Of a stretch of DNA of 64,000 nucleotides, positions 21,653 through 22,016 are shown in pieces. Source of the DNA: Otis tarda (lineage: Eukaryota > Chordata > Aves > Otidiformes > Otididae). The stretch covers positions 134,243,053 to 134,307,052 of the forward strand of contig CM048552.1 of the NCBI GenBank assembly GCA_026413225.1, given 5' to 3'. A model generated the notes under the pieces. It worked only from the letters and a program-made list of their open reading frames with translations. It searched no databases and was not told the DNA's origin. Position 1 is the first letter of the stretch, and every line of letters begins with the position of its first letter. A program made the position numbers and the translations under genes.

Positions 21653-21761
21653 TGTCCATTTGTGATGAATACTTAAGAAGGAATTATGCAAGTTAATGAC
21701 AGTTACAGAAGTGTAACTTGTATTCGAGAGAGCTACTGCTTGGATCTCAGAGGTAGGAAAC
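21653..21761 (+). pseudogene. PIR: PIR (pirin) terminal exon homologue, frame broken
   Basis: Pirin is a nuclear iron-binding cupin protein and transcription cofactor. Its human C-terminus runs from GPFVMNT to FERAKTWKSKIGN. Here an acceptor (TTTTCTCTGTAG) is followed by codons for C-P-F-V-M-N-T and then TAA (21674-21676). Continuing in that frame gives E-G-I-x-Q ... Y-R-S, in register with human E-E-I-x-Q ... F-R-N. At 21723 the match resumes in another frame as F-E-R-A-T-A-W-I-S-E-V-G-N. From the P codon to the F codon is 67 nt here against 69 expected, so 2 nt are missing. Human PIR lies directly upstream of VEGFD on the same strand, which supports the call. Either PIR now ends at PFVMNT, about 26 residues short, or the gene is decaying. 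No upstream PIR exon is recognisable in the window. Confidence 0.65.
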
Positions 21762-22016
21762 CAGTGCTCTGAAATATTATGTACGTGACTGTTTTATATT
21801 AACAGCTGCAGAGGCCGATTCTGCAAACTCTAAGCCATGTGAGAGTGGAACTACAGCAATTATATGAGTAGAGCAATGTAGATTTAACATGCATAATTAT
21901 CAGAGCCTTTGTCTATGTTATAATTTTAAATATTAGATCTCCATTTTGGTTTTAAACTGTGGAAATATACAGAGAAAATGCATGCACATCTTGGGACAGA
22001 AATTATGTTTTGCTGC

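Follow-up and report, generated by a model that had tools for sequence, protein, structure and literature searches.

Pirin and its gene in a bird

Does Otis tarda still have pirin? This nuclear protein, described as highly conserved and as affecting NF-kappaB p65 in a manner that changes with its iron state (PMC10688961), is regulated by NRF2 (PMC8868368), and a 64,000-nt stretch of the Otis tarda genome (the window) holds, beside VEGFD, sequence that resembles the end of its gene, PIR. The question raised by this locus is whether that gene is working, shortened at its C-terminus or lost, and, if lost, whether in this bird or in birds at large. The upstream half of PIR falls outside the window, and our scans for individual pirin segments covered positions 1-22900.

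A relic of the last PIR exon

21655-21767, forward strand: relic of the last coding exon of PIR (pirin; ancestrally GPFVMNT...GNQ-stop), recognised from sequence and profile

The two parts of this exon are read in different frames: PFVMNT followed by TAA occupies 21656-21676, just as the first-pass annotation had described, and FERATAWISEVGNQ stands in another frame at 21723-21764. When human pirin (a sequence that by eye matches an aligned PDB chain) was compared with the 64 kb, its two best matches were 21656-21712 (PFVMNT, a stop and EGIMQVNDSYRS; residues 255-273) and 21723-21761 (FERATAWISEVGN; residues 278-290), which are collinear, lie ten nucleotides apart in differing frames and have a joint E of 0.08 over the 64 kb. 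Sauropsid pirins fit the relic best (E from 2.5e-4 to 4.5e-4), among them a gecko-like sequence (P0023, E 2.5e-4) and a turtle sequence (P0091, E 3.9e-4), with a mammalian cluster (P0001) at E 0.041. A frameshift-aware profile, built from 147 pirins with extra weight given to sauropsids, scored 106.9 over 21656-21764; across 20 dinucleotide shuffles of the 64 kb the highest score was 54.4. With a profile limited to the last exon, none of 100 shuffles of positions 1-22900 equalled the score of the relic. The two collinear human matches, the sauropsid E values and the profile set against its shuffles together mean that the relic is a real observation. The homology to PIR proposed on first inspection thus exceeds chance, and sequence comparison confirms 21655-21767 as the remains of the last PIR exon. 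Elsewhere in the window, only short matches of 19-26 nt to the relics described here were found, and we rejected the idea that the relics are copies of a repeat.

VEGFD and the ancestral gene order

22945-53021, forward strand: VEGFD, seven exons in order, open, with AG/GT at the borders (from sequence); syntenic neighbour of the relic and control

The relic lies upstream of VEGFD, 1178 bp from its ATG and on the same, forward strand, and this VEGFD is avian, its best matches (92-94%) being to clusters named for a penguin (209 members), a turnstone (61) and a leafbird (157). A marsupial map places these genes in the order PIGA-FIGF(VEGFD)-PIR-BMX-ACE2 (PMC3170641; taken here for order, the strand not being read from it). 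That order agrees with the position of the relic beside VEGFD, so that the synteny first invoked in favour of homology is supported and the relic occupies the orthologous place. A protein annotated in the vole Microtus ochrogaster (P0236, 429 aa) carries pirin and PDGF/VEGF domains together, as if annotation had fused the tandem neighbours PIR and VEGFD through read-through, which fits a common strand. In human, too, we take PIR and VEGFD to lie on the same strand. In another paper, pir is named as a neighbour of ace2 for ray-finned fishes only, which is no test of birds (PMC6278350). With human queries, BMX was not found in the window (one weak match at E 0.08, with stops), nor did PIGA give any match there at E up to 1.

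Within a VEGFD intron, an open reading frame beginning MIRGLEHFYKERQRELGLFSLDKRRLQGDLLAALQYLKG runs from 49303 to 49689; it is of a type often met near CR1-like repeats in birds.

Lesions of the last exon

21651-21652, forward strand: AG resembling an acceptor, one base 5' of the expected AG/GT CCA border (from sequence, with the phase deduced as below)

21674-21676, forward strand: in-frame TAA where turtle has a Q codon (sequence and alignment to sauropsid pirins)

21713-21722, forward strand: net 2-nt deletion, 10 nt where 12 nt are expected (four codons, AKNG in turtle; alignment and profile)

21765-21767, forward strand: TGC at the position of the turtle pirin stop, after GNQ; original stop lost (alignment to turtle pirin)

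The turtle pirin C-terminus used for comparison is GPFVMNTQEEIIQAIDDYRNAKNGFERAATWKSKIGNQ, and a functional pirin would have an open last exon with this conserved tail and a stop; the relic has instead an internal stop, a frameshift and no stop after GNQ. The first-pass annotation was right that the downstream half of the C-terminus survives in another frame, 2 nt short, the deficit being measured between the N-matching codon, which ends at 21712, and the F codon at 21723. At the far end, the tail reads AWISEVG in place of TWKSKIG, and loss of the stop lets the relic frame continue for seven residues (CSEILCT) before it closes. Residue changes are less telling. The last exon is complete in 142 of the 147 aligned pirins, and 15 of its positions are conserved in 98% or more of those 142; of the 15, the relic changes two (E to G and D to S) and is unaligned at three, and the worst real pirin (P0126) also departs at two of the 15, so that substitutions at conserved positions alone do not separate the relic from real pirins.

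The splice acceptor is also out of place. In a turtle isoform (P0058), DGETEAQR is inserted at VVQH/GPFV, and if the insert ends in the usual acceptor's AG, phase 1 is the one phase that fits, with AG/GT CCA as the expected border; the intron before the last exon would thus, judging from this annotated isoform, be of phase 1. The relic has TAG/TGT CCA, one base out of register, and a scan demanding at least 12 pyrimidines in 16 did not flag the AG at 21651-21652. The earlier description of this site as a good acceptor was therefore too generous.

Could pirin nevertheless remain functional and simply end at the new stop, some 26-30 residues shorter? PFVMNT is perfectly kept directly before that stop and an AG lies just upstream, but splicing at this AG from the ancestral upstream exon, in the predicted phase 1, would read VSICDEYLRRNYAS and then a stop, putting PFVMNT out of frame. 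The original stop is lost as well, the core of a second exon is frame-shifted, seven further pirin segments, including those expected between the two relics, are unrecognisable in positions 1-22900, and no bird pirin of any length is named among the rows listed (see below for each). A working, truncated pirin is accordingly very unlikely, and of the two outcomes first envisaged, truncation by about 26 residues or loss of the gene, it is loss that stands. The disabling lesions comprise the stop, the 2-nt deletion, the loss of the original stop, an acceptor that would be one base off in the deduced phase, and the shifted core of the second exon; those of the last exon fit decay better than a functional C-terminal truncation.

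A second exon relic and the remaining segments

4342-4416, forward strand: second, weaker PIR exon relic (turtle SKIYTRTPTLFLDFKLEKGAKHIQPVPKG), from segment profile and splice borders

When nine parts of pirin were scanned separately against positions 1-22900, one of them matched 4364-4418, with YLGFKKDKEVKPTQ opposite gecko YLDFKLDKGVKHTQ, at a score that 1 of 100 shuffles reaches. The core of this relic, VYLGFKKDKEVKPTQ at 4361-4405, is shifted in frame. Scanned with the whole protein, the relic scored 48.7, which 5 of 20 shuffles equalled and which is thus not significant alone; this is below the 50.2 of a match at 14122-14166 that we rejected as a PIR exon, being out of order and itself inside the shuffle range. 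The borders of the relic offer a separate line of evidence. Insertions and skips in annotated isoforms place exon borders at GVK/SKIYT and PVPKG/WTSF, and at these same borders the relic has an acceptor, ttcttccatag/CC (4342), and a donor, CCTAAAG/gtaagc (4416/4417); the chance of GTAAG falling no more than 2 nt from any given point is about 0.006 here, and that of an acceptor-like site within a 12-nt interval about 0.03. At 75 nt the relic is shorter than the roughly 84 nt expected (our own count, assuming phase 1 at both ends), and since the net loss is nine its assumed ancestral frame stays open overall: spliced in that phase it is stop-free, reading STCKYKMCTWASRRTKKSSPHSSPKG, and is therefore no proof of decay by itself. 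Despite the frameshift in its core, the second relic thus retains its two splice sites and would, spliced in that phase, remain open.

The seven further pirin segments could not be recognised in 1-22900 with the frameshift-aware profile, their best real scores being reached by 8, 9, 14, 68, 75, 77 and 98 of 100 shuffles, that is, by at least 8 in every case. They include WTSF..YVG and SDDA..VQH (98 and 77 of 100 shuffles, respectively), both of which would be expected between the two relics.

Two relics, 17 kb apart and one of them with both acceptor and donor, point to an intron-containing gene rather than a retrocopy, a reading that leans partly on the second, weaker relic. That only two exons are recognisable on the scale of the window might still suggest a partial duplicate or a retrocopy, with a functional PIR elsewhere in the genome. 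The intron borders, the exon order, the strand and the ancestral place beside VEGFD are all kept, however, and no bird pirin is named in the rows listed, and we hold such a duplicate to be very improbable. Sequencing or assembly errors in an intact PIR would likewise have in their favour that indels are a usual type of error, but substitutions dominate here (11 of 33 aligned last-exon codons differ from the assumed ancestor), the lesions fall at two places 17 kb apart, the other pirin segments are unrecognisable in positions 1-22900 and the VEGFD of the window is open. The many substitutions, together with lesions so widely separated, make sequencing error unlikely, and we consider an intact gene obscured by such errors barely credible.

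Perfect two-copy tandem duplications occur at 2357-2467 and 54770-54842 (units of 55 bp and 36 bp), and look recent or could be assembly joins. Rfam gave nothing at gathering scores within the window, and a scan of viral contigs for an exon pattern gave none.

Apparently missing bird pirins

The distribution of pirin proteins bears on how widely PIR was lost. No bird or crocodilian pirin is named among the best 120 of about 8000 matches to the human query, nor among the best 120 of about 8000 to the turtle query. The matches listed name turtles (Chrysemys, Trachemys, Gopherus, Pelusios, Mauremys), squamates, mammals, amphibians, lungfish, coelacanth and many fishes, and each of the 14 unnamed rows obtained with the turtle query has a lizard, mammal, frog, lungfish or other fish as its nearest named sequence. 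VEGFD, searched in the same database as a control, gave at least 11 bird-named clusters with at least 463 members among the best 120 of 214 rows (our own count; members are sequences, not species, and each row bears the name of one source per cluster), together with one Alligator row of 2 members. A very divergent bird pirin, or one placed within another animal's cluster, would escape the rows listed, but a pirin retained by hundreds of birds could, on this protein evidence, hardly stay hidden. A few crocodilians may sit inside turtle-named clusters, and we therefore make no claim of loss in crocodilians.

The first-pass annotation spoke of truncation or loss in this lineage. PIR might have been lost in Otis tarda or its close relatives alone and be retained by other birds, as only one bird has been seen as DNA and absence among the best 120 proteins is indirect. 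The listed pirins do not bear this out: neither search placed a bird among its best 120, compared with the at least 463 members of bird-named VEGFD clusters, and the divergence of the relic, at about 0.2 substitutions per site, speaks for an old loss. We therefore think a private loss unlikely, and PIR was probably lost across birds, a view drawn from one bird genome as DNA and from the listed proteins.

Probable decay in place and the age of the loss

It is very likely that PIR in this bird is a unitary pseudogene: a gene with introns that has decayed where it stood, no working copy being visible. It has probably been lost in all birds. This explanation is preferred because it accounts at once for where the remains lie and on which strand, for both relics and their several lesions, and for the proteins that are missing; a functional copy elsewhere would not be expected. 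The ancestral PIR would have stood immediately before VEGFD, in the same orientation. The avian line would then have lost its function, with the sequence drifting ever since: the last exon presumably gained its stop, its frameshift, the loss of its original stop and an out-of-register acceptor, the second exon would have kept its splice borders as small deletions shifted its core, and the remaining exons of the 3' part of PIR may have decayed beyond recognition.

The relic also gives some indication of when this occurred. In the last exon, 22 of the 33 aligned codons keep the residue of the assumed ancestor (taken from turtle and squamate residues), and neutral simulation on these 33 codons of one exon puts the divergence at about 0.2 substitutions per site, with 0.1-0.3 still roughly compatible (at 0.1, the probability of 22 or fewer kept is 0.046; at 0.3, that of 22 or more is 0.078). 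Such a divergence suggests an old loss. At a neutral rate for birds near 2e-9 per site per year, the loss would be of the order of 100 million years old, with wide error; unless rates were slow, this would fall after the bird-crocodile split. As far as one exon can date it, this agrees with a loss that preceded the crown bird radiation or fell early in it.

Relation to known genes and losses

The PIR genes of turtles and squamates (Chrysemys picta P0042, Gopherus P0091, gecko-like P0023) share with the relics the sequence and borders of the last exon and of the SKIYT..PKG exon; they are open and conserved, whereas the relics show a stop, frameshifts and stop loss, with the other segments unrecognisable. 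As in the genes described as missing in birds (Lovell et al., 2014; PMC4290089), a conserved vertebrate gene is here without any bird protein that we have seen, but that study concerns, by its title, missing syntenic clusters, whereas PIR appears as one gene decayed beside a kept neighbour, with readable relics. The main text of PMC4290089 does not contain PIR, pirin, VEGFD, FIGF or BMX as whole words, nor does that of a 2026 paper on avian missing genes contain PIR or pirin (PMC12954441); the supplementary lists of either paper may hold the gene. Among the literature matches listed we found no report of PIR loss in birds, which may stand in a supplementary table of missing genes; in PMC9078135 and PMC6896592, 'Pirin' is the name of an author, not the gene.

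A second parallel is KEAP1, an avian gene of the redox response for which loss of a function is likewise reported: binding of KEAP1 to NRF2 is reported to have been lost in Neoaves, and in golden eagle KEAP1 a stop and frameshifts are reported (PMC7234996). It is another gene, and the words pirin and PIR are absent from the main text of that paper; any link between the loss of PIR and the change in KEAP1 is speculation. We lean towards a single loss of PIR before living birds radiated, perhaps already in archosaurs, in which case the NF-kappaB and NRF2 responses of all birds would proceed without pirin, and in Neoaves would have done so before or alongside the change in KEAP1.

The decay of PIR is an ordinary type of event in a notable gene. 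If the loss is truly class-wide, it could be compared with the change reported for Neoaves, in which KEAP1 no longer binds NRF2, and it would call for caution in carrying pirin biology over to chicken models. Birds would then represent a natural pirin knock-out, showing what vertebrates manage without pirin.
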